Source: a virus. Taken from it: DNA of 40,666 bases. The position numbers and the translations under genes are program-made. How positions within the stretch are numbered: the first letter of the stretch is position 1; every line of letters starts with the position of its first letter. Below, one piece after another: positions 123-39,992 of this stretch. The stretch spans positions 1 through 40,666 of the IMG/VR virus record IMGVR_UViG_3300012006_000012; one strand, 5' to 3'. The notes beneath the pieces are model-generated. The model saw only the letters and a program-made list of their open reading frames with translations, did not search any database and was not told where the DNA came from.

Positions 123-752
123 TTAGGCGGTCTTTACCATTGAACGCTTAGCGATTGGGACTAGGACTTCCAATAGGGCGGTTAGGGTCTGAAGGTCTGA
201 TGTCTTCATTTCCTTGAGATTCTTCAGAGTGCGGACTTCCAATAGGGCTTGAGACACGATAGATTCGATAGACTTCGCGCTTACCTTCTCGGACTTCGCA
301 TTAGTGCGGGACTTAGATTGAGTCGGTGCGACCTTCTCTAATTCTTCGATAGTTGATGCGCCTTCGATAGCGCCTTGAGCGCCTTCCGCGCCATGCTCGC
401 GACCGACACGCTCGGACAATTTTAGAAGGCTCGCGACCGATTGAGATTCCGCATCTGAAACCTTGCCGACAATTTCAGAGAAGATTGGAAACCATTGGAC
501 ATGTGACTTTCGGATTGTAGGGGCATTTCCGATTTTAGAGGCTTCCGCGATTGAGGCTTGGACTGTGCGGATTGAGGTCTTTCCATTTTTTAGCATTTCG
601 GCTATTTCTAGGACGAATTGGATTTCCCCGTCATGGTTGATGAGGGTTGAGTAACTTTCGACAATTTCCGCCATTGGGACGATTTCTGTCTTCTCGACCT
701 TGATTTTTGCTGGTGTTGAATTGTTAGTGCTGGCTACTGTTTTTTGAGTCAT
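123..752 (-). CDS. Hypothetical protein, 209 aa
   Basis: I do not recognise this protein. It is Lys/Ser/Glu-rich with a central HVQWFPIF patch (about residues 83-90), a charged low-complexity stretch (about 140-165) and a leucine-rich helical C-terminus. The ATG at 752 is preceded by GGAAATAAGAAA, a weak ribosome site. It is the only gene left of the origin-like block and is read away from it, with a strong terminator behind and a 15-bp palindromic operator 124 bp upstream. That placement would suit an early regulatory or replication-accessory role, but nothing in the sequence proves it. Confidence 0.7.
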   Translation of the reverse strand: MTQKTVASTNNSTPAKIKVEKTEIVPMAEIVESYSTLINHDGEIQFVLEIAEMLKNGKTSIRTVQASIAEASKIGNAPTIRKSHVQWFPIFSEIVGKVSDAESQSVASLLKLSERVGREHGAEGAQGAIEGASTIEELEKVAPTQSKSRTNAKSEKVSAKSIESIVSQALLEVRTLKNLKEMKTSDLQTLTALLEVLVPIAKRSMVKTA

Positions 753-875
753 TTTCTTATTTCCATTTCTGTGGGTATTTCATGGATTGGATTTTCCGAC
801 CCATAGGAAAACCTTAGCATCATTTCGGGCATTTCAACACCATTTCGGGGATTTATTTTTATTTATTTTTTGAGC

Positions 876-890
876 GTATGATTATCATAC
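876..890. promoter_or_regulatory. 15-bp palindromic operator, copy 1
   Basis: GTATGATTATCATAC, a perfect 7-1-7 inverted repeat, between the leftward 209-aa gene and the DnaA-box cluster. It is the only copy on this side of the genome. Confidence 0.7.
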
Positions 891-891
891 A

Positions 892-920
892 CTCAGGATT
901 CTCTCAGGATTCTCTCAGGA
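892..920. repeat. 11-bp tandem iterons
   Basis: CTCAGGATTCT occurs at 892-902 and 903-913, followed by a partial copy CTCAGGA at 914-920. A period of 11 bp puts each unit on the same helical face, as in iterons bound by replication initiators or regulators. Confidence 0.7.
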
Positions 921-926
921 ATGGAC

Positions 927-942
927 TCGAACACCTGTTCGA
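927..942. promoter_or_regulatory. LexA (SOS) box
   Basis: TCGAACACCTGTTCGA is a perfect match to the LexA operator of Actinobacteria and Firmicutes, GAAC-N4-GTTC, including the flanking TC/GA. It sits between iterons and DnaA boxes, which suggests that host LexA, and hence DNA damage, affects leftward transcription of the 209-aa gene or origin activity. The match is seen; binding is inferred. Confidence 0.7.
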
Positions 943-980
943 TTGTTTGTGTTGGGCGACACGCCCGACCTCGTTGTTGG

Positions 981-1022
981 CTGTCCACATGTGGATAACT
1001 TTGTGGATAAGCCTGTGGATAA
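981..1022. other. DnaA-box cluster (putative replication origin core)
   Basis: Three perfect TGTGGATAA boxes (complement of TTATCCACA) start at 990, 1002 and 1014, exactly 12 bp apart and in one orientation. An opposed box CTGTCCACA at 981-989 (one base from TTGTCCACA) abuts the first, forming CCACATGTGG. A degenerate TTATCCTGT follows at 1032-1040. Such density is expected at a DnaA-dependent origin and not by chance. No phage DNA polymerase is recognised, so host-dependent initiation is plausible. Confidence 0.75.
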
Positions 1023-1162
1023 CTATGCCCCTTATCCTGTGAGTTTGCTGAGAGTTTGCTGTGAGGATAGTCGCATCAAGAATAAACGCTTCATAGATAA
1101 ATCGACATATCTATTTATCGACAAATCGACAAATGCCGACCGTAGGGTTATTTATTTTGCAC

Positions 1163-1217
1163 CCCCACCCCTCTTATAGTATCCCTGAATAATTTTCTGT
1201 TATATTTTAGGGTGGGG
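1163..1217. repeat. 8-bp inverted repeat with AT-rich interior
   Basis: CCCCACCC (1163-1170) and GGGTGGGG (1210-1217) are perfect complements around a 39-nt AT-rich interior. This could extrude as a cruciform or mark a melting element beside the DnaA boxes. Confidence 0.45.
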
Positions 1218-1321: not shown

Positions 1322-1438
1322 TAACGGAGTCGCTCCGTTTAAGACTCCGCTCCTCCTATATATAATATATAATTTATTATAATGGGACAATACTGCCCGT
1401 TTGACCCAACCGTTAAAACGGCGTTATTAGGAGATATG

Positions 1439-3307
1439 ATGGGACGCAAGCCAGGGGTACAATCTGTACCTAAAGACGAGGCCCAGGCCAAAGTACTAGC
1501 CCTACTAGAACAGGGTGCTACTATCACTGCTGCTATGGCAGCCGTCGGTCGCCAGGATACTGCCTTCCGTCAGTGGGTCATGTCAGATGAGTCTTTCAAA
1601 GAAAAATCAGATAAAGCCCGCCTTGCAGGCAAAGGCATTAAGGCCAACCTGGAAGAACTCAAGGATATCCCTTATGAAGAGTTCTCAATGCAATTTCTTG
1701 ATACCCAACTCTTTGACCATCAACTTAACTGGCTAGACCTCATTGAAGGCCGTGAGCCAAGGTGGCAACCTGCAGGTATGACCTATGAGCCAGGAGACCC
1801 AAAGCGCGTTCTTATCAACGTGCCTCCTGAGCATGCTAAATCAACCACCATTACCACCAACTATGTTTTACACCAAATCGTTACAAAGCCCAATACCCGT
1901 GTTATCGTAGTTTCTAAGACTCAGGGTATGGCCCGCAAGTTCTTGGGTGCAATTAAAACCCGACTTAGCCATCCTGGTTACATGAAACTACAGACGGCCT
2001 TTGGCCCTAATGGTGGCTACAAGGCAGATGCTACACAATGGTCTGCCGATATGATTTATCTAGGTACAGGACGCGATTCTGGCGAGAAAGACCCAACTGT
2101 CCAAGCCCTCGGGTTCGGTTCACAGATTTATGGTGCTCGCGCCGACTTGATTATCCTAGATGACGTGGTGATGGGTTCTAACGCCCATGAGTGGGAGAAG
2201 CAAATTGAATGGCTTCAAAAGGAAGTAATCACCCGCCTGGGGCGGCATGGAAAACTAATTATTGTAGGAACCCGTGTCGCGCCCATTGACTTATATAAAA
2301 TGATACGCTCTGGCGACCAGTGGACAGGTGGAAAGACACCCTTTACCTACTGTGCTATGCCAGCCGTTCTTGAGTTTGACGAAGACCCTAAGAAGTGGAA
2401 GACACTCTGGCCTGCGACTAACATTCAAGAGAATGATATAGATGAGGTTTTAGACAATGGACTTTTTCCCAAGTGGGATGGACCTTCTCTCTTTAAGCGC
2501 CGCTCTGAGGTCGCGCCGTCCGTTTGGGCTATGGTCTACCAGCAAGAAGATGTCCAGTCCGACTCCATATTCGCGCCAACACTTATCGCAGGATGTGTTA
2601 ACGGTATGCGAAAGCGCGGACCGCTTAAACAAGATACTCCAGGACACCCGAGACATTTAGAATCTACTTATACCGTTATTGGTTTTGACCCTGCGGTATC
2701 GGGACGCTCAGCCTTCGTAGCAGTTACTTATAACCGTTCCGATGGTAGGGTATATGTACTAGACTGCGTCAACATGGTTGACCCATCTCCCCAGAAAGAG
2801 AATGCTCTCATTCATGAATGGGTGGAAAAGTACAAGCCCCAAGAGTTTAGAGTGGAAATCAACGCCCACCAGAAATACTATGCTATGGATACGGACCTTC
2901 GTAATTACCTAGCCCAGTGGGGTTGTCAATTGAACTCACACTTTACTGGTAAGAACAAGTGGGATACATCTTTCGGTGTGGCATCTATGGCTAGCCTTTT
3001 TGGTAGCGAGCGCGATGGCCGTTTCCAGGACAACAATATTATCGAACTACCATCCAATGAAGGCTCTGAGGGACTTAAGTCTCTTGTACAGCAATTGATT
3101 ACATGGAAGCCAGATACTAAGAACCCAACCGACTGTGTTATGGCTCTTTGGTTTGCTATCATCCGCGTACGTGAGTTGATGCAGCAGTCTAGCAGGGTGG
3201 GTCAATACCAAACCAATCGATGGGCAACTAGGGCGCAAATGTCCAGCCGTGCATCACTTAATTTAGACGAAGCCTTTGCAGAGCAATGGGCTGAAACTTA
3301 CAACTGA
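1439..3307 (+). CDS. terL: Terminase large subunit
   Basis: This is the DNA-packaging motor, an ATPase-nuclease that cuts and pumps DNA through the portal. From the ATG at 1439 it is 622 aa. An N-terminal helix-turn-helix-like stretch (about residues 8-60) may replace a separate small subunit, since none is seen. Motor motifs are a Walker A-like PPEHAKST (about 129-136) and Walker B LIILDD (about 237-242). The RNase H-like nuclease starts at VIGFDPAVSG (Asp about 417) and ends near the Asp of NPTDCVMALW. I chose 1439 because AGGAG at 1429-1433 lies five bases upstream; an in-frame ATG at 1382 lacks a ribosome site and overlaps a TATAAT. Confidence 0.93.
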   Translation: MGRKPGVQSVPKDEAQAKVLALLEQGATITAAMAAVGRQDTAFRQWVMSDESFKEKSDKARLAGKGIKANLEELKDIPYEEFSMQFLDTQLFDHQLNWLDLIEGREPRWQPAGMTYEPGDPKRVLINVPPEHAKSTTITTNYVLHQIVTKPNTRVIVVSKTQGMARKFLGAIKTRLSHPGYMKLQTAFGPNGGYKADATQWSADMIYLGTGRDSGEKDPTVQALGFGSQIYGARADLIILDDVVMGSNAHEWEKQIEWLQKEVITRLGRHGKLIIVGTRVAPIDLYKMIRSGDQWTGGKTPFTYCAMPAVLEFDEDPKKWKTLWPATNIQENDIDEVLDNGLFPKWDGPSLFKRRSEVAPSVWAMVYQQEDVQSDSIFAPTLIAGCVNGMRKRGPLKQDTPGHPRHLESTYTVIGFDPAVSGRSAFVAVTYNRSDGRVYVLDCVNMVDPSPQKENALIHEWVEKYKPQEFRVEINAHQKYYAMDTDLRNYLAQWGCQLNSHFTGKNKWDTSFGVASMASLFGSERDGRFQDNNIIELPSNEGSEGLKSLVQQLITWKPDTKNPTDCVMALWFAIIRVRELMQQSSRVGQYQTNRWATRAQMSSRASLNLDEAFAEQWAETYN

Positions 3308-5102: not shown

Positions 5103-5672
5103 ATGACAACACTTGTAGCAATTCAAGGTGATGGCTGGTCTGTCTTAGGTTGCGACTCTCGTTCTAGTGATGAAAGTGGTCGTCCTATGGACATGGCCAC
5201 TCACAAGATTATAGAAAATAACGGAATCCTTATTGCGGGTTCTGGAGCAGGACGTGGCTCAAATATTCTGCAGTTCGGATGGAAAGCACCTAAGCCTACG
5301 GCTGGTGCTAACTTGGATATCTGGGTAACTCAAACATTTATCCCAGCGATGCGTAAAGCATTTGTCGATGCAGGCTATGATATGAAAGAAGATGGGGAAG
5401 CAGCAGGACATGATTCTTCGTTTCTCATCTCAGTTAAAGGCGTTATCTATCCTATCTTTGAAGACTATTCTTGGGATAGGGACATTCGTGGTATATATTA
5501 CGGTGGTTCAGGTGGCGATGTTGCTCTTGGTGCTCTCGAGGCTCTTGGTGTCCAGCGTCTTACGAAGGCGGACTCAGTAGAAAAAGCAGTTCGTAAAGCA
5601 ATTGCTATCGCAGCACAGTGGGATATCTATACAGCAGAACCAATTATTACTAAAATTCATTATTCTAAGTAG
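5103..5672 (+). CDS. HslV/proteasome-beta-like threonine protease
   Basis: A 189-aa Ntn-hydrolase. After loss of Met1 the chain begins Thr-Thr as in HslV. Counting that Thr as 1, Asp falls at 17 in GCDSRSS, the position of the proteasomal Asp17, and Lys at 34 in THKI, next to the proteasomal Lys33. LIAGSGAGRG matches the Gly47 region and GGSGGDVALGALEAL a typical later helix. Length fits HslV (about 175 aa). GGGGACG precedes the ATG. It lies between portal and the other head genes, where phages place a prohead maturation protease, so cleavage of scaffold or head proteins is the obvious hypothesis. No unfoldase partner gene is present. Confidence 0.8.
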   Translation: MTTLVAIQGDGWSVLGCDSRSSDESGRPMDMATHKIIENNGILIAGSGAGRGSNILQFGWKAPKPTAGANLDIWVTQTFIPAMRKAFVDAGYDMKEDGEAAGHDSSFLISVKGVIYPIFEDYSWDRDIRGIYYGGSGGDVALGALEALGVQRLTKADSVEKAVRKAIAIAAQWDIYTAEPIITKIHYSK

Positions 5673-5681
5673 GAGGCCAAG

Positions 5682-6104
5682 ATGGCAATAAGCGCTGAAA
5701 ACAATTTTCAAGTATCAGCAACTGGTGGCGCGGGCGCATCTGGTCAAGGCAAGAAGTATATTCCAGGAATGAACAATTTAGGTTCTTCTGGAAAAGAAAC
5801 AATGGCTCAGCAAGGTGCAGCAACAATGTACAAAGCACCAGAAGCGCCTACACTTCCACCTGTAACTCCTCTTACAGCACCAACAGAACTAAAAGACCAG
5901 CATGTAATGCATGGTTCAATGGGCGGACCAGGACCCAATAGCGTTCCTAATCTTCCAACTGCTCCTAGCGAAGACCCAGATATCCAATCTTTGCGCGACC
6001 ACTATGACATCCTTGCATTTTGGGCATCACAACCTGGTGCATCACAAGCATCTAAAGACTACGTAAGTTACCTTAGCACAATTGTCCAGGGAAATGTGGT
6101 ATAA
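5682..6104 (+). CDS. Putative virion protein, 140 aa
   Basis: I do not recognise a family. The first 85 residues are Gly/Ala/Pro-rich and probably disordered; the last 45 form a likely helical segment (SLRDHYDILAFWASQ). AGGAGG precedes the start. Its stop overlaps the next start as TAATG, so it is translationally coupled to the giant internal protein. Small disordered proteins here are often head or ejection-apparatus accessories, which is inference. Confidence 0.7.
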   Translation: MAISAENNFQVSATGGAGASGQGKKYIPGMNNLGSSGKETMAQQGAATMYKAPEAPTLPPVTPLTAPTELKDQHVMHGSMGGPGPNSVPNLPTAPSEDPDIQSLRDHYDILAFWASQPGASQASKDYVSYLSTIVQGNVV

Positions 6105-9100
6105 TGGCTGGGATTTGGGATTCACTAGCGCGGACCCAGGAGATACTTTCAAAATATAAAAAGACAGATGCACCGTTTAACTCTGATAAGAAATTAAACT
6201 TTGGGGCTGCTTTAGATATTGCAAAGAATATGCCTGCTAATCCTACATATTACAGCAAAACAATTGCTGAGGCTAAGCAACAACTATTTTTTCCTACTGC
6301 TGGAACTGGCGTAAATACTGGTGGTGTTAATAATGCTATCGAACGTGGACGTCAAGATATTCTAGGTGTAGCACAAGCAACACTTGGTAAACCAATCGGC
6401 ATTCCTGCTAGCGCGGCTGCTGGTGCAGCGATTGGTTCTGTTGTTCCTGGCGTCGGTACTGCCATTGGCGGTGGACTCGGTGCGCTTACTGGTACTACAA
6501 TGTACGGTATTGCAGAACTTGACAAGAAAACAGATGGCAAAGTTAGCAAAGCCCTTATGTCTGGTACAAAAGGTGTGCGTTCTAACTACGCTTTTGTTAG
6601 TGATGTTACAAAGCATGATGCTGCGCTAGGCTTTTGGGCCACACTTGCACTTGTTGGTGCTGGTGTAGCAGGTACTGCTGCTGTAATTGCATCAGGCGGT
6701 GCGGCTGCTCCTGCAGTTGCTGCTGGTTTGCTCGCTATGTACGGTGCTGGTAAAGCAGAACGTGCTGCTGCAGAGGCTGGTGTCTTTGATTCTATTTCTA
6801 AGAGCATTAAACAGTCTGCTATTCTTTCTCAAAGCGCTGTAGGACAAGAGCGTTATAATTTTGGTACTGATGCTATGCATCTTGCTTCTGCTGCAACTGG
6901 TTTTAAGACACTTGGTGATACAACTAAGGGCATTGGTGCAATCGGTTCTGGCTTATTAAACTTTGTTGCAGAAACTGGAACAGCCCCAGATATCAAGGGA
7001 CTCCAACTCGGTGGTAAGTTAGTACGTGCAGCAACTGTTGGCGGTATTACATCAAAGACAGAAGGACCACTTGTTGGTTTTGTCGAAAAGGTTACTAATG
7101 AACCTGCTCGTGCAGCGCAACGTCTTGCTGATGATGTGGCAGTTATTAAAAGAACTGTTGCTGGGGAAGAAACTGCTTATACCCCATTAATTAAATTTTT
7201 ACAAGAGAATGATGTTGCTACAATTCAGCAACGTATAGAATATCGTGGTAATGAAATTGGCCAGATTGGTATTCCTCTTGTCGCTGGTAAAAGCGCAGAA
7301 GAAATTGGTCTAGTACTACGTATCTCTCGTGGAGATAAGACTGCACTAGAAGAACTATCTGCTCAGCACCCATCAACATTTGCACAATTAATGCGCTATG
7401 AAGGTATGCTTGAGACAATCGAGCAATCTGGTAATCAACGTATTGCTTATGGCTTTACTCGTGCAGATGGAAGTAACATTGTTCTTTCCAAGAAGTTGAC
7501 TGGTAACACAGCAATGATTGAAGCAGAACTAGAAGACTTACAATCACGTTTTAGTAATCTTAACAAAATGCTTAAACTTGATTCTTCAATGCAGGAACGT
7601 ACTGTATCAAAGATTCCTGGTATAGAAGCACTTCGCAACGATATTGCTAAGCAGCGTGCTGCCAATAAATTAGGCAATACAGAAACAGACCTCACTACTC
7701 GTGAGACTATGGCTGGCAAAGTCATGCAAAAGGTTTACACAGACAACAGCCTGCTTGGTGTAACTATCCGTAAGATAGATAGAGCGCTAGATGACACTCC
7801 TCACCAAACTGTTAATTTTAATGACATGGTTACTGGAACATCTCGCTTACGTACTACAACTCGTGCTGCTGTTGATAAGCAACTTATGGCTCCAGAAGAA
7901 GGACGTCTTCTTTATAACTCTTTCATAACTGCTAAAACAGAAGTTGAAAAACTTGCTGCATTAGAGAAATTTGAAACACGTATCTTTGAACAACTTGGAA
8001 ACAAGCATGGTGTTCCTGGACTATTGGTTGACCAAGTTCTCAAAGAGTATCTTACTATCATTGCACGCAATAAGTCTAAGGCTGTTGAAGCCAAGGCTGC
8101 TAATAAGGCTTACATGATTGATGAAGTTGGCGACGTAATCGTTGACCCACAACTTATCTCACAGTTGGCTAACGGACATTATCTTCCAGATATCGACCTT
8201 CTTGATAAAGCGTTTGCACGCTATTCAAAGAAGATGGGTGAAGAAGCAAGTCTACCAGTTAACATGGCTATTTTTGGCCGTTCTGTTGTAGATGAATTCC
8301 AATCAGTATGGCGTTCTATTACTCTTGCTCGTACAGGATTCCCAGTTAACATTATGCGTGACTCTACGCTACGTGCGTGGGGTGATGGTGCGTTATTCTA
8401 CATGGTTAAAGACATGAGTACAACAGCACTTGAGAATGTAGTTAAGTCAAAGAATGAAGTTTCAGAAATCCGTAACTGGGCTAAAACTGTAACTCGTAAA
8501 GATTCTAACTTAAAGTATATTCGTCAAGAGATGAATACACGCGATGCCGCACTCAAGGATATTCCAAATGTTCTTAAGCGTGCTGGTTATGATGCTGCAG
8601 ACCCAAAGACTTTAACTCCAGAAGTTCAAAAAGTTTTAGATTACCAAAATCAAGTACAATCAATCCGTGAAGGTTTGAGCATGCGCGAGCAACAACTTGT
8701 TGCAGGCAAGCCTGAGAAGATTGTTGGTCGTGATTCAGTTAATATCATGGGCTATGACTTCCCTAAGGGTGGTGCTGGTCGTTTTGGTAGGATGAGTTAT
8801 GATAAGTTGCGTGGCAAGGAAGACCTTCGTGGACTTCTTGCATCATCTCGTGAACTTGACATGGCTAATATTCGACGTGACCGCGTTGGTGGACATAAGA
8901 TTGAACCTACACAGTTCAATGAGAAGTTGCACTTGAAGTCATGGGAAACAATTCTTAATAACAGCCTCAAAAATGACCCAGTTGCACGCCTTATTCTTGG
9001 ACAGAAGATGACTGAAAAAAACATCATCTCATGGATTAGAAGCGAAAAGTCAACTGATTACATTGAACGCTTTGGATACGACCCAAAGTTAAAGCGTGCT

Positions 9101-11059
9101 CTTAAATATTCTGATGCTGAGTATATCTATAACCGTGTTCTTAATGCAGTCAATCAGTTTGCTCCAGAGACTAAACTTTGGAAGCCAATTCTTGACGACA
9201 CATTAGATGTAACTACTCTAAAGAAGTTATATCCATCATGGCAAGAACGCCCTACAATCGTAACTGACCTAGCAGAAGATTTGCTTGGAACAAGTAACGC
9301 TGCACGCTGGATGTCAAATCTTCTCAAGGATACAGTAGCGTGGATGGCTACAGTTCCTACAAGCGTTTTGTCATATCAGCCATACTTTAATGCAAAGTAT
9401 CAGCATAAGTTGCAGAACATGGTAGCAGTTGCTAACCAACAGGGACGTAAGTTAAGCGAGATGGACCAGGCGCAGTTTGAATCTGTTGCTCGCGCTCATG
9501 CTATGAGCGAATATAAGAGCAAGATTAACGCATTCAACCGCGATATGAATTATCCTGCTATGGTTAACTACATTATGGCATTCTTCCCTGCAGTGGTAGA
9601 ACAGTACCGTGCATATGGAAAGATTACAATGGAGAACCCAGAGTTCCCAATGAAGATTCTTGCTATGTCTCGTATTCCAGACTATGTCGGTGATGTAAAA
9701 CTTGACCAATATGGAACTGAGTATGTAGAAGTAGCACTTCCCTTACTTGGTATTCATGGACGCCTTCCAGTATCATGGTTTAATGCTGTTAACCCAACTG
9801 GTGGACATATCCTATCAGCAGGTCCAGTATCATCATTTGGTGTAAATATACTTGCTAAGCATGTTGACTTACCTAAGATGTTTGTAGATACAGTTCTTCC
9901 ATTTGGCGTACAGGCTAATAACCTAAACGCTCTAACACCAGGCCAACTGCGTAGAGCAGGCCAGGCATTCCAAGCATTCGTGCTAAAGAATGGCGAACAG
10001 TATAACAAAGATGTTAATATGTTCATTGAAATGAAGCGCTTTGATTTCCAAGGGGAATATCATCGTCAGCCCAATGCCAATGAGATTGACCAAATGTACA
10101 AGCGCTCACGTAAGGATGCTACACAGTTAGCAATCCTTCGCTCAGTTGGTGCTGGTATTCTTCCCGCACAGCCACAATATGTAACACCTATCCAGGTGTA
10201 TGCGGACCTTCTTGGTAAGTACATGAAGGATTATGGTCAAGATGGAGCAGAACGCTTCACACAGGACTACCCAGACTATTATCTTCTTGTAGATAAGTTA
10301 ACTGACTCAACATCTGGCATTCGTTCAGATGACACAGCAGTTGCTCTTGTAAAGAAGAATACTGATGTTATTGAGAAGATGGTTGCAGGTCGTATTGATT
10401 TACGCTCTCTTGGAGCCGTATTCAATGATGATAACTATGCATTCTCTGGAACAGCACAGGCTTACCTAGTAAACAATGCTATTCCTGGTACAAAGCAGAA
10501 GTTCAAAGAGCAGGGTGAAGCCCTAGCAAATAACACTTCATCTATTGTATCTAATGGTTGGAATCAATGGAATAAGATGATTGAGACTGTAACACAGGAA
10601 CTCATCAACAATGACCCACCTTATGACGTATCTCATGGATATGGCGCTGCAGTTCTTGATACATATAAGAAGAACTTCATGGAAGCAATGAAGACACAGA
10701 ATAACCTTTGGTACGAAGAGAAGGTTGGCGCTGGTTATACTAACCGCCAGAATGACGTGGTACAGGTATTGACTATTGCTGCTAACACACCTAAGTTGTG
10801 GGCAGACCTAGCAAAGCAGCCACGTTGGCACTCAGTTGTTGAGTATCTAAACTTTAGATATGAGATGTACGATGCTCTCAAGGCTCGTGGAACTACAATT
10901 AATACAGCCAAAGCAACTGACCTATTACAGGCAGCGAAAGCAAAGGTAGCAGAACTACGTAGAACAGATGTCAACTTTGGCAAGTTCTATGATAGATATT
11001 TTGATGGGGATGAGTTCTCATATGTCTATGAAGAACAACCAGCGATTGGGAGTAAATAA
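6104..11059 (+). CDS. Giant internal virion or tape-measure-like protein, 1651 aa
   Basis: The largest gene. Two Gly/Ala-rich hydrophobic blocks at about residues 98-136 and 173-215, with many small-xxx-small motifs, look membrane-inserting. The rest is mainly charged and helical, with a Trp-rich segment near 1060-1120. No lysozyme or peptidase motif was recognised. Size and coupling to neighbouring virion genes suggest a DNA-ejection (internal core) protein or tape measure. It lies before the scaffold and capsid genes and no chaperone frameshift pair precedes it, which favours an ejection protein. The ORF is intact, arguing against widespread indel errors in this assembly. Confidence 0.75.
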   Translation: MAGIWDSLARTQEILSKYKKTDAPFNSDKKLNFGAALDIAKNMPANPTYYSKTIAEAKQQLFFPTAGTGVNTGGVNNAIERGRQDILGVAQATLGKPIGIPASAAAGAAIGSVVPGVGTAIGGGLGALTGTTMYGIAELDKKTDGKVSKALMSGTKGVRSNYAFVSDVTKHDAALGFWATLALVGAGVAGTAAVIASGGAAAPAVAAGLLAMYGAGKAERAAAEAGVFDSISKSIKQSAILSQSAVGQERYNFGTDAMHLASAATGFKTLGDTTKGIGAIGSGLLNFVAETGTAPDIKGLQLGGKLVRAATVGGITSKTEGPLVGFVEKVTNEPARAAQRLADDVAVIKRTVAGEETAYTPLIKFLQENDVATIQQRIEYRGNEIGQIGIPLVAGKSAEEIGLVLRISRGDKTALEELSAQHPSTFAQLMRYEGMLETIEQSGNQRIAYGFTRADGSNIVLSKKLTGNTAMIEAELEDLQSRFSNLNKMLKLDSSMQERTVSKIPGIEALRNDIAKQRAANKLGNTETDLTTRETMAGKVMQKVYTDNSLLGVTIRKIDRALDDTPHQTVNFNDMVTGTSRLRTTTRAAVDKQLMAPEEGRLLYNSFITAKTEVEKLAALEKFETRIFEQLGNKHGVPGLLVDQVLKEYLTIIARNKSKAVEAKAANKAYMIDEVGDVIVDPQLISQLANGHYLPDIDLLDKAFARYSKKMGEEASLPVNMAIFGRSVVDEFQSVWRSITLARTGFPVNIMRDSTLRAWGDGALFYMVKDMSTTALENVVKSKNEVSEIRNWAKTVTRKDSNLKYIRQEMNTRDAALKDIPNVLKRAGYDAADPKTLTPEVQKVLDYQNQVQSIREGLSMREQQLVAGKPEKIVGRDSVNIMGYDFPKGGAGRFGRMSYDKLRGKEDLRGLLASSRELDMANIRRDRVGGHKIEPTQFNEKLHLKSWETILNNSLKNDPVARLILGQKMTEKNIISWIRSEKSTDYIERFGYDPKLKRALKYSDAEYIYNRVLNAVNQFAPETKLWKPILDDTLDVTTLKKLYPSWQERPTIVTDLAEDLLGTSNAARWMSNLLKDTVAWMATVPTSVLSYQPYFNAKYQHKLQNMVAVANQQGRKLSEMDQAQFESVARAHAMSEYKSKINAFNRDMNYPAMVNYIMAFFPAVVEQYRAYGKITMENPEFPMKILAMSRIPDYVGDVKLDQYGTEYVEVALPLLGIHGRLPVSWFNAVNPTGGHILSAGPVSSFGVNILAKHVDLPKMFVDTVLPFGVQANNLNALTPGQLRRAGQAFQAFVLKNGEQYNKDVNMFIEMKRFDFQGEYHRQPNANEIDQMYKRSRKDATQLAILRSVGAGILPAQPQYVTPIQVYADLLGKYMKDYGQDGAERFTQDYPDYYLLVDKLTDSTSGIRSDDTAVALVKKNTDVIEKMVAGRIDLRSLGAVFNDDNYAFSGTAQAYLVNNAIPGTKQKFKEQGEALANNTSSIVSNGWNQWNKMIETVTQELINNDPPYDVSHGYGAAVLDTYKKNFMEAMKTQNNLWYEEKVGAGYTNRQNDVVQVLTIAANTPKLWADLAKQPRWHSVVEYLNFRYEMYDALKARGTTINTAKATDLLQAAKAKVAELRRTDVNFGKFYDRYFDGDEFSYVYEEQPAIGSK

Positions 11060-28558: not shown

Positions 28559-28597
28559 AGTACTCCTTCGATATTATAATAATATATTATTATATAT

Positions 28598-28617
28598 ACA
28601 AACGCCTAAGCGTTTGT
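28598..28617. repeat. Leader hairpin between the divergent promoters
   Basis: ACAAACGC-CTAA-GCGTTTGT is an 8-bp stem. In the leftward transcript it lies in the untranslated leader of the 54-aa gene; on the plus strand it is followed by TTTTATAT and may act as a weak terminator. Confidence 0.55.
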
Positions 28618-28643
28618 TTTATATATAATTTCTTACAAAATTA

Positions 28644-28672
28644 ATTATACACAGACAATTACCATCTGTCAA
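28644..28672 (-). promoter_or_regulatory. Consensus leftward promoter for the 54-aa gene
   Basis: On the minus strand TTGACA (28672-28667), 17-bp spacer, TATAAT (28649-28644): a perfect sigma70-type promoter. Transcription should start near 28637, about 80 bases before the ATG at 28558. Confidence 0.8.
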
Positions 28673-28686
28673 ATACTTATAACTAT

Positions 28687-29969: not shown

Positions 29970-30752
29970 ATGCGTACTCTAGTACGTTCAGTAGGACGAG
30001 CATCCATTGGTGGGGAACCCCTTCCTAGTTGTTTTAAGGCATTTGAAACGAACAAGATTATCATCAGGCGTTCAGAAGTTTCTATGTTTGCAGGCGCACC
30101 TGGAGCAGGTAAATCAACACTTGCTCTAGCGCTTGCACTCAAAACCAATGTGCCAACATTGTATATCTCAGCAGATACCAACGCACACACAATGGCTATG
30201 CGCCTTGCATCTATGATTTCGGGGAAGAGTCAGTCAGATGTAGAGCAGAAACTTAATACTGATGTTGGATGGACTAAAGCAATCCTCCAAAAAGGAAGCC
30301 ACATAGTCTGGTCGTTTGAATCAGCACCAACATTGCAAGACATCGATGAGGAAGTCGAGGCATTTGAGGAGTTGTGGGGCTGTCCCCCAACTCTTATTAT
30401 TCTCGACAACCTCATGGATGTAGCCACAGATGGTGGCGAAGAGTTCGCATCTATGCGAGCCATCATGAAGGAGTTAAAGTATCTTGCTAGGGCAACGAAT
30501 GCAGCAATTGTGGTTCTACATCATACTTCGGAAGCAGTTCCTGGGAATCCTTGTCAACCAAGAAGCGCCATCCAGGGTAAAGTTTCTCAACTTCCTGCGC
30601 TTATATGTACGCTCGGCACGGTTGGCACATCGTTGGGCGTGGCATCAGTCAAGAATCGCTACGGAAGAGCCGACCAAAACGGGTCGCTCATGACGTGGCT
30701 CGCATTTAACCCAGAGTATATGTACATAGAAGATATTCCAGAGAACGCATGA
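29970..30752 (+). CDS. RecA/DnaB-like ATPase (putative helicase)
   Basis: 260 aa. Walker A GAPGAGKST (about 42-50), Walker B TLIILDN (about 141-147) and a VVLHHT motif (about 181-186) as in the RecA/RAD25 and DnaB families; no OB or N-terminal DnaB domain. AAAGGGAGACCA precedes ATG 29970. It is the best candidate for the phage's replicative helicase or a recombination ATPase and overlaps the resolvase gene by four bases (ATGA). Confidence 0.82.
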   Translation: MRTLVRSVGRASIGGEPLPSCFKAFETNKIIIRRSEVSMFAGAPGAGKSTLALALALKTNVPTLYISADTNAHTMAMRLASMISGKSQSDVEQKLNTDVGWTKAILQKGSHIVWSFESAPTLQDIDEEVEAFEELWGCPPTLIILDNLMDVATDGGEEFASMRAIMKELKYLARATNAAIVVLHHTSEAVPGNPCQPRSAIQGKVSQLPALICTLGTVGTSLGVASVKNRYGRADQNGSLMTWLAFNPEYMYIEDIPENA

Positions 30753-31117
30753 CGACTCGCAAATCCCACAAGGCAAGAGGAGCATCATTTGAAACTGATA
30801 TTAGAGATTGGTTTCGTGCTCATGGCTATGATGCTGAGCGCCTTGCTCGTGCTGGTGCTAAAGATGAAGGTGACGTTGTTGTTAAGACGGATTTTTTGGG
30901 GAGCATCGGTATCATCGAGTGTAAAGCGCCAGGCGCAAGTGGCAAAATTACTCTCCCAGGTTGGACGAGAGAAGCGCAAGTAGAAGCAGACCATTACGCG
31001 GAAGCGCGTAACATTGACAGAAATGCTATACTACCCTCAGTTATTATTAAAGCAAGAGGCAAGTCCATCGACGATGCCTATCTAGTATTAAGGTTGGGCG
31101 ATGTTTTTGGTGGATGA
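30749..31117 (+). CDS. Holliday-junction resolvase-like nuclease
   Basis: 122 aa. The layout GASFETDIRDWFRAHGYDAERLARAGAKDEGDVVV (Glu15, then Asp42) followed by GIIECKAPG (Glu57, Lys59) matches the PD-(D/E)XK core of Hjc-type and VRR-NUC-like junction resolvases. It overlaps the ATPase before and the primase after, consistent with a replication-recombination operon that trims branched DNA before packaging. Confidence 0.75.
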   Translation: MTTRKSHKARGASFETDIRDWFRAHGYDAERLARAGAKDEGDVVVKTDFLGSIGIIECKAPGASGKITLPGWTREAQVEADHYAEARNIDRNAILPSVIIKARGKSIDDAYLVLRLGDVFGG

Positions 31118-31475
31118 CCTACCCGATATTGTAGCGGTACTACAGCACTACGGTGCTACGGTACGGCGCACTAGCGGCCAAGTGAATGTGAAGTGTCCAT
31201 TCCATAATGACTCTCACGCTAGTGCAAGTTTCAATACGAGAGAGAATATATTCAACTGTTTTGCGTGTGGTATGCAAGGCAATAGCATTCAAATAATTGC
31301 TAAACAAGAGAGGTGTGATATACGTGAAGCAAAGTCTATCGCAGAAGGAATTACTGGGCAGAGCGGCAATGAAGTACGCGGGAAATATTCATCTGGCCGA
31401 AGATTACCTAGCAAGTCGGGGAATAACGCGGGAAGTAGCGCGGTTGGCTCGATTCGGCGTAGTAGAGGAGCCTGA
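31101..31475 (+). CDS. DNA primase, zinc-binding part
   Basis: 124 aa. VKCPFHNDSHASASFNTRENIFNCFACGMQGN gives Cys32, His35, Cys53, Cys56, the CHC2 zinc ribbon of DnaG-like primases. Residues about 62-88 continue like a normal primase, but the last about 35 (SSGRRLPSKSGNNAGSS) look like out-of-frame sequence of the Toprim ORF, which is open in the +1 frame across 31297-31475. Either two separate subunits are made, as reported for mycobacteriophage L5-type primases, or there is a frameshift near 31370. Confidence 0.75.
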   Translation: MFLVDDLPDIVAVLQHYGATVRRTSGQVNVKCPFHNDSHASASFNTRENIFNCFACGMQGNSIQIIAKQERCDIREAKSIAEGITGQSGNEVRGKYSSGRRLPSKSGNNAGSSAVGSIRRSRGA

Positions 31476-31950
31476 GGTTGGTCAAGAAGCGTTCATCGGT
31501 CGTCTCTCGATTCCTTACATTACTAAAACTGGTATTGTTGATTTGCGGTTTAGGTCACTTAATCCAGCGGTGGAACCGAAGTACATGGGAATGACTGGTG
31601 CTGAAACCAAGATGTATAATGTAACCGACATTGACAAAGCAGGTGATTGGATTGGGGTATGCGAAGGTGAACTTGATACCATTACTCTTAGTGGCTGTGT
31701 TGGTATACCTTGCATTGGAGTTCCAGGTGCAAACTCATGGAAGAAACATTACACCAGATTACTTGCAGACTTTGAGCGCATCTTTGTCTTTGCAGATGGA
31801 GACCAACCAGGAAAAGAATTTGCCGCTGGTCTTGCCAGGGAATTGCCAGTTACTGTCGTCTCAATGCCAGACGGAGAAGATGTTAATAGTTGTTACGTAA
31901 AGTATGGTTCCGATTTCTTACGAGATAAGATGGGTCTGAATAATGAATAA
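31324..31950 (+). CDS. DNA primase, Toprim part
   Basis: 208 aa from GTG 31324, which has AGAGAGG ten bases upstream; TTG at 31297 and ATG at 31369 are alternatives. AEDYLASRGITREVARLARFGVV (about 25-47) is the linker motif before the Toprim fold. The fold has VCEGELDTITLSG (catalytic Glu) and VFADGDQPGKEFA (DxD). It needs the zinc domain of the overlapping upstream ORF for full primase activity. It makes RNA primers at the fork, with the ATPase at 29970 as likely partner. Confidence 0.78.
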   Translation: MKQSLSQKELLGRAAMKYAGNIHLAEDYLASRGITREVARLARFGVVEEPEVGQEAFIGRLSIPYITKTGIVDLRFRSLNPAVEPKYMGMTGAETKMYNVTDIDKAGDWIGVCEGELDTITLSGCVGIPCIGVPGANSWKKHYTRLLADFERIFVFADGDQPGKEFAAGLARELPVTVVSMPDGEDVNSCYVKYGSDFLRDKMGLNNE

Positions 31951-39948: not shown

Positions 39949-39992
39949 GCCTATCATGAGAATCGAACTCATGACTATGCGCCAGCATAGGC
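39949..39992 (-). other. tRNA-like or nested hairpin element
   Basis: On the minus strand GCCTAT (39992-39987) and ATAGGC (39954-39949) can close an acceptor-like stem. Inside is a perfect 7-bp hairpin TCATGAG-TTCGATT-CTCATGA, a textbook T-arm, and a 6-bp CTATGC-TGGC-GCATAG hairpin that competes with the outer stem. A normal tRNA does not fit: no D-arm and no seven-base anticodon loop. It follows the stop of the 56-aa gene and could be a tRNA remnant, a processing signal or a chance match. Confidence 0.25.

Follow-up and report, generated by a model that had tools for sequence, protein, structure and literature searches.

The 753-1381 intergenic region of a 40,666-base viral record (the window, by which we mean the whole stretch of DNA that was analysed) separates a leftward gene from the gene of the large terminase subunit (TerL). 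The two ends of the window share an imperfect 71-bp overlap, which indicates a nearly complete, circularly closed record. The features of the region and of its flanks are as follows:

123-752, minus strand: leftward gene on the other flank of the region, without assigned function
852-871, plus strand: T-rich tract (sequence and stability scan)
890-922, plus strand: three 11-bp iterons of the CTCTCAGGATT type (CACTCAGGATT/CTCTCAGGATT/CTCTCAGGAAT)
927-942, no strand given: actinobacterial LexA (SOS) box TCGAACACCTGTTCGA, exact match to the consensus
951-969, plus strand: conserved hairpin GTTGGGCG-ACA-CGCCCGAC, left of the DnaA boxes
981-989, plus strand: opposed DnaA-type box CTGTCCACA; the same 9-mer stands here in several relatives
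990-998, minus strand: DnaA box TTATCCACA, exact sequence match
1002-1010, minus strand: DnaA box TTATCCACA at a 12-bp step, exact sequence match
1014-1022, minus strand: DnaA box TTATCCACA at a 12-bp step, exact sequence match
1037-1069, plus strand: three 11-bp iterons CTGTGAGTTTG CTGAGAGTTTG CTGTGAGGATA, the inverse of the 890-922 set
1070-1180, plus strand: predicted direct terminal repeat, left end GATA/GTC at 1070 and right end at about 1180, by analogy with Streptomyces relatives
1382-3307, plus strand: TerL, with a weak terminase-small-subunit-like N terminus (profile search)

Based on its TerL, portal, split primase, helicase-like protein and WhiB, we place the window with phages of freshwater actinobacteria, a family that includes cultured members infecting the most abundant freshwater bacteria, and its host would most likely be a freshwater Nanopelagicales-type actinobacterium. 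The nearest named records are E7 and F5 (OX376640/41), both grown on 'Ca. Planktophila' (PMC10202952), while the Beephvirinae of Streptomyces are more distant relatives. A DNA similarity search of the box region against phage records returned the family and two short matches to 5.6-kb rodent-associated phage records. TerL, searched in bacterial genomes for prophages or a host, gave no match.

Elsewhere in the window, a proteasome/HslV-like peptidase, a possible maturation protease, is encoded between the portal and head genes (5103-5672). The 1651-aa protein encoded directly after the portal region (6104-11059) gave no meaningful match in profile searches and is swapped for unrelated proteins of about 1700 aa in other family members. 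A tRNA T-arm-like stretch, TATCATGAGAATCGAACTCATGA, lies at 39952-39974 and was called by neither ARAGORN nor Rfam.

A conserved cluster of DnaA-type boxes upstream of terL

The original prediction of three perfect boxes at 12-bp phase plus one opposed box agrees with what is found at 981-1022, where three exact copies of TTATCCACA fit in 33 bp and the opposed box, CTGTCCACA, differs from TTATCCACA by two mismatches. YTGTCCACA is the high-GC actinobacterial form of the DnaA box. In the whole window TTATCCACA is expected 0.36-0.42 times, and the chance of three copies within 42 bp is about 2-4 × 10^-8 (overall range given, about 10^-8 to 10^-7). Sequences drawn from a Markov model of the genome held at most 3 DnaA-type 9-mers per 200 bp, compared to 4 observed.

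Conservation was surveyed over 59 loci, i.e. the window and 58 relatives with enough DNA upstream of terL. The box cluster is present in 20 of them, always upstream of terL, and the complete or long genomes carry clusters at this site only; in 14 box-less genomes a cluster was found nowhere in the genome. TTATCCACA occurs 44 times in the box-carrying regions versus 0.08 expected, CTGTCCACA 8 times versus 0.04 expected, and the spacing is exactly 12 bp in 20 of about 40 close box neighbours. Across the relatives the boxes persist, with varying number, order, orientation and intervening sequence. A functionless cluster arisen by chance would fit the single boxes elsewhere in the window, which appear at about the chance rate; it is contradicted by the conservation of the cluster, which recurs at one place in 20 phages, and by a probability of the order given above, and we give it practically no credence.

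The presence of boxes is variable among close relatives. Phages whose helicase-like protein is 80-95% identical can be without any DnaA cluster, and the cultured relatives E7 and F5 have no DnaA boxes. On a TerL tree of 44 rows (a further 15 were lost to a truncated reading or to a first matched base that was out of frame), 7 changes are needed to explain box presence, at least 6 of them on well-supported branches. The box-less L018 and the box-carrying L016 have nearly identical TerL and different arrays. Box-less phages bear other repeats at the same place, for example CCTATAGGA and ATTTACTTA at a 12-bp step.

Searching 2.9 million viral contigs for the pattern TTATCCACA-N3-TTATCCACA gave at least 120 matches, against about 2 by a rough chance estimate, and TTATCCACA pairs also lie near terL in a second phage group, whose TerL is about 42% identical. 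In five members of that group (L361, L371, L397, L411 and L439), TTATCCACAggtTTATCCACA-type pairs stand right where terL, or a small gene upstream of it, has its ribosome-binding site; they are a possible DnaA operator on the terminase genes of these phages.

Host DnaA as the probable reader of the boxes

The likely host family comprised 61 genomes, gathered from the DnaA locus of a 1.3-Mb, 45% GC freshwater actinobacterium, of which 30 had their dnaA locus read. Downstream of dnaA, the conserved 9-mer met most often is TGTGGATAA (26 of 30 genomes), and CTATCCACA, TTATCCCCA, TTTTCCACA and TTATCAACA are enriched in both the host dnaA loci and the phage regions. Phage and host counts of 28 non-consensus variants are not significantly correlated (rho 0.25, p 0.21). 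The window thus shares TTATCCACA itself and several of the variant 9-mers with the Nanopelagicaceae-type oriC/dnaA leader. Some host dnaA leaders also carry a box pair at the same 12-bp step as the window, once with the identical 3-bp spacer, and the dnaA leader L304 has the 21-mer TGTGGATAACTTTGTGGATAA in common with it. The exact TTATCCACA-N3-TTATCCACA arrangement is absent from six actinobacterial genomes scanned.

A phage-encoded DnaA was considered and rejected, the domain search giving nothing above the cut-off and one sub-threshold match in a box-less genome. No gene is common to the box-carriers and missing elsewhere (five box-carrying genomes, one of them partial), which makes a variable phage protein an improbable reader. 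The host-matching 9-mer and variants, together with the lack of a DnaA-type domain above the cut-off and of a tracking gene, make host DnaA the most likely reader. Judged from the sequences, host DnaA very probably reads the boxes, as had been proposed, and we would expect with high confidence that DnaA binds the 981-1022 cluster. As in an oriC-type region, the cluster goes beyond chance and its boxes match those of the host.

The boxes might instead be sites of a phage terminase or initiator protein that equal the DnaA consensus by coincidence. Repeats beside terL would suit a small terminase, the iterons are of that kind, and CCTATAGGA and ATTTACTTA take the same place in box-less phages. 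Nevertheless, the 9-mer equals the bacterial consensus and several host-tolerated variants are present, the L018/L016 pair combines nearly identical TerL with different arrays, and no phage gene tracks the boxes; we find this explanation very improbable.

Register of the boxes with a predicted packaging terminus

Four Streptomyces relatives have direct terminal repeats (Dennebes 254 bp, Kumquat 264 bp, ZooBear 274 bp and FlowerPower 253 bp, the last as published, PMC9753666), which all start with GTCCC and end at GAGTG/AGTCCC, the slash marking the cut here and below. The bases before GTC vary among them (TATA in Dennebes; GGACT, GGACA and GTACA in the others). About 50 of 57 loci of the freshwater family have the motif GGNGATA/GTC at a distance of 300-470 bp upstream of terL. 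Its GTC is precisely where contigs L067 and L077 start; they are two of about 22 contigs ending within 460 bp upstream of terL, which is weak evidence taken alone. In the window, GTC likewise follows an ATA-type motif upstream of terL, as at the left end of Beephvirinae-type repeats. From the Streptomyces repeats and the two contig ends, we predict that the terminal repeat of the window has its left end at 1070 (cut between 1069 and 1070) and its right end near 1180. By the same analogy, the linear genome would have the boxes at its right end, just beyond the repeat. GATAGTC as a cos site was dropped, Dennebes having a direct terminal repeat.

The window thus resembles the four Beephvirinae in TerL, portal, helicase-like protein, split overlapping primase and a terminus starting with GTC upstream of terL; unlike it, these Streptomyces phages have no DnaA-box cluster, and their repeats measure 253-274 bp compared to about 111 bp predicted here. 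The Planktophila phages E7 and F5 belong to the same family (TerL about 75%, portal 83-87%) and share the GATA/GTC motif, and differ from the window by the missing boxes.

Counted over 19 phages, the boxes number 74, of which 71 are on the left side of the predicted cut and nearly all no more than 95 bp away from it. Among 15 non-duplicate phages, 7 have a box whose start falls exactly at -22, such boxes being found in either orientation, and 5 of 7 lineages have one at -22 to -24; random placement equalled the -22 register in 3 of 20,000 trials, relatedness not being corrected for. In the window itself, 11-bp iterons fill the -33, -22 and -11 slots right up to the predicted cut, and the box positions begin at -56; the arrangement is much the same in L006, L009 and L349. 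Box-less phages have iterons or AT-rich DNA in the slot, behind a conserved C-tract. The 22 bp between box start and TTACTAC in the host oriC may match the -22 phage register by coincidence.

These positions bear on a packaging function, in which DnaA beside GATA/GTC would bend, melt or mark the concatemer junction for terminase with no start of replication, and iterons or the AT-rich slot would do the same job in box-less phages. The register, including its rarity under random placement, speaks for it, as do the iterons that occupy the window's slots up to the cut and the C-tract preceding the slot; the cut itself rests on the Streptomyces repeats and the starts of L067 and L077. Against it, the terminus of the window's phage is deduced from relatives, the nearest exact box in the window is at -56, and the box position could partly reflect shared descent. 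We know of no terminase that uses DnaA. Overall, a pure packaging element appears rather unlikely.

Iterons, LexA box and the regulatory alternative

The 11-bp iterons that had been noted in the sequence are confirmed as repeats at 890-922 and, inverted, at 1037-1069. They stand on both sides of the DnaA boxes, and the last iteron of the right-hand set abuts the predicted cut. P1 oriR and pSC101 are origins with DnaA boxes plus iterons, and the window resembles them in combining both within one intergenic region. It differs from them in that no Rep initiator is recognised and that the iterons abut the predicted terminase cut and occur also in box-less phages. Pfam and PHROG scans of the main proteins gave no Rep family; many small proteins are without assignment.

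The LexA box, whose consensus was taken from PMC9380542, lies 38 bp left of the DnaA-box cluster. Similar boxes are found in 7 of 19 family genomes, all about 450-545 bp upstream of terL, against 0.03 expected per genome, and they are present also in phages without DnaA boxes. Through this box, the window's phage may sense host DNA damage. Between the LexA box and the DnaA boxes, the hairpin GTTGGGCGACACGCCCGAC (951-969) and the TTTGTG before it are strongly conserved in many relatives, and a related inverted copy lies at 47-60.

A regulatory function would have DnaA and LexA jointly control putative divergent promoters within 753-1381, or would have the boxes sequester DnaA, so that rising phage copies silence host initiation in a datA-like manner or time terminase expression. 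The cluster indeed stands between divergent genes, the LexA box recurs in the same region of several relatives, the second phage group has TTATCCACA pairs near TerL, some at the start of terL or of the small upstream gene, and host dnaA leaders bear the same 12-bp-stepped pair. DnaA is known to act as a transcription factor and to be titrated by datA (PMC5835720), and lambda offers a further precedent, its ori/pO region having DnaA boxes with DnaA described as acting through transcription (PMC3985674). What the window shares with lambda ori/pO is that host DnaA sites stand in a region for phage regulation and replication; lambda differs in having its own O/P initiators. However, titration calls for no fixed place, 12-bp step or -22 register, and LexA boxes are found also in phages without DnaA boxes; we consider a regulatory or titrating role unlikely.

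Replication genes and candidate start sites

The replication functions and a rival start site lie in the second half of the window:

28559-28686, plus strand: candidate rival start site, least stable DNA, upstream of the replication operon (stability scan)
29970-30752, plus strand: RecA-fold helicase-like protein, 260 aa (profile search and model)
31101-31475, plus strand: primase, zinc-ribbon part (profile search)
31297-31950, plus strand: primase, Toprim part, in another frame and overlapping the zinc-ribbon part (profile search)

Pfam and PHROG scans of the window's main proteins gave no DNA polymerase, and family searches in at least 20 family records found no polymerase A, B or III-alpha. 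The profile searches are thus in line with the original prediction, made from the letters alone, that the phage has no recognised polymerase, and support its reliance on that of the host. The split, overlapping primase frames resemble those of Dennebes. The helicase assignment stood in part: the fold of the 260-aa protein best matches DnaB and T7 gp4, but it is a single RecA-fold domain, its predicted model has a modest mean pLDDT of 63, and a PDB sequence search led to RAD51D/RadA.

GC skew, with a minimum near 2.0 kb and a maximum at 34.4 kb where genes converge, follows gene direction and is therefore uninformative; it was rejected as a means of placing the origin. The host unwinding motif consists of a box, 22 bp and TTACTAC, and GTTACTAC or its complement occurs in 22 of 30 hosts and in 0 of 20 box-carrying phages. 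TA[GA] runs (DnaA-trio) are at chance level in the phages. The predicted AT-rich tract exists at 852-871, but its stability is ordinary, at least 9 other 60-bp stretches of the genome being less stable, and it was rejected as an unwinding element. Beside the boxes there is thus neither the host motif nor a marked stretch of low stability, as an oriC-type unwinding element would show. Unlike the Nanopelagicaceae-type oriC, the phage region has no box-22 bp-TTACTAC, does not lie beside dnaA/dnaN and is tied to a predicted packaging terminus.

By far the least stable DNA of the window lies at about 28.57 kb, and the same site is the least stable in nearly every family genome. It contains a single TTATACACA (28645-28653) and is a candidate early promoter or origin. 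In many members this stretch, upstream of the exonuclease/helicase operon, has a conserved GGCC..GGCC-type hairpin and (T/G)TATACACA.

A classical origin at the boxes is thus disfavoured by the fact that phages with closely similar replication genes may have or lack them, by the missing host unwinding motif and by the universal low-stability site at 28.56-28.69 kb beside the replication operon. Of the bacterial-type origin originally proposed, the host-matching boxes stand; the unwinding motif is missing, the boxes are optional and, where present, are positioned relative to the predicted terminase cut.

A proposed role of DnaA at the genome terminus

The explanation we prefer, with clearly less than even confidence and only narrowly ahead of a packaging role and of regulation or titration, is that host DnaA is recruited to the genome terminus and seeds DNA synthesis there with host enzymes. 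The 981-1022 cluster would be a host-DnaA binding array immediately left of the packaging terminus. DnaA would bind the 12-bp-stepped boxes cooperatively and help to open the DNA and/or to load host helicase and polymerase III, and replication, or a local synthesis duplicating the terminal repeat, would start at the terminus. Host enzymes, with the phage primase and helicase-like protein, would carry out this synthesis, which could serve genome replication, terminal-repeat duplication or both. This reading is backed by the boxes, their conservation, their identity with host boxes and the lack of a polymerase in the searches, the terminus coming from the relatives. In broader terms, a polymerase-less phage probably borrows DnaA beside its predicted cut to start copying or to process its ends.

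Several results argue against DnaA-seeded synthesis: a register with the cut is unexpected of a simple origin, the TerL tree calls for 6-7 changes of box state, the cultured E7 and F5 lack boxes, and phage and host usage of the 28 non-consensus variants is not significantly correlated. A somewhat doubtful variant is that the boxes form a module, interchangeable with iterons and set at a fixed distance from the terminase cut, where DnaA-dependent opening or synthesis would duplicate or process the repeats; the formation of phage ends would then involve the host initiator.

Phage and plasmid origins with DnaA boxes are not new (P1, pSC101, lambda), and software has been used in at least one phage paper to predict an origin from such boxes. 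The literature searched, with incomplete coverage, gave no precedent for a DnaA module that can be exchanged and stands in register with a terminase cut. If DnaA acts at the packaging terminus, phage replication or end formation would be wired directly to the host initiation factor, and a 150-bp element that is naturally present or missing would make the start of copying and the duplication of ends testable in polymerase-less phages with short terminal repeats.

Other elements near the flanking genes

The palindrome GTATGATWATCATAC occurs 9 times in the window (876-890, 35351, 37075, 37564, 39422, 39832, 40338, 40437 and 40538) and 10 times in each of two family genomes, G001 and G003, and is absent from the other 17. 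It goes together with the leftward gene 123-752, 82-83% identical in G001 and G003, and is perhaps its operator. On the opposite flank, an inverted repeat, CGGAGTCGCTCCG...CGGAGTC, in the terL leader (1325-1356) gave no Rfam match; it is nearly universal across the family and is probably a regulatory RNA hairpin.
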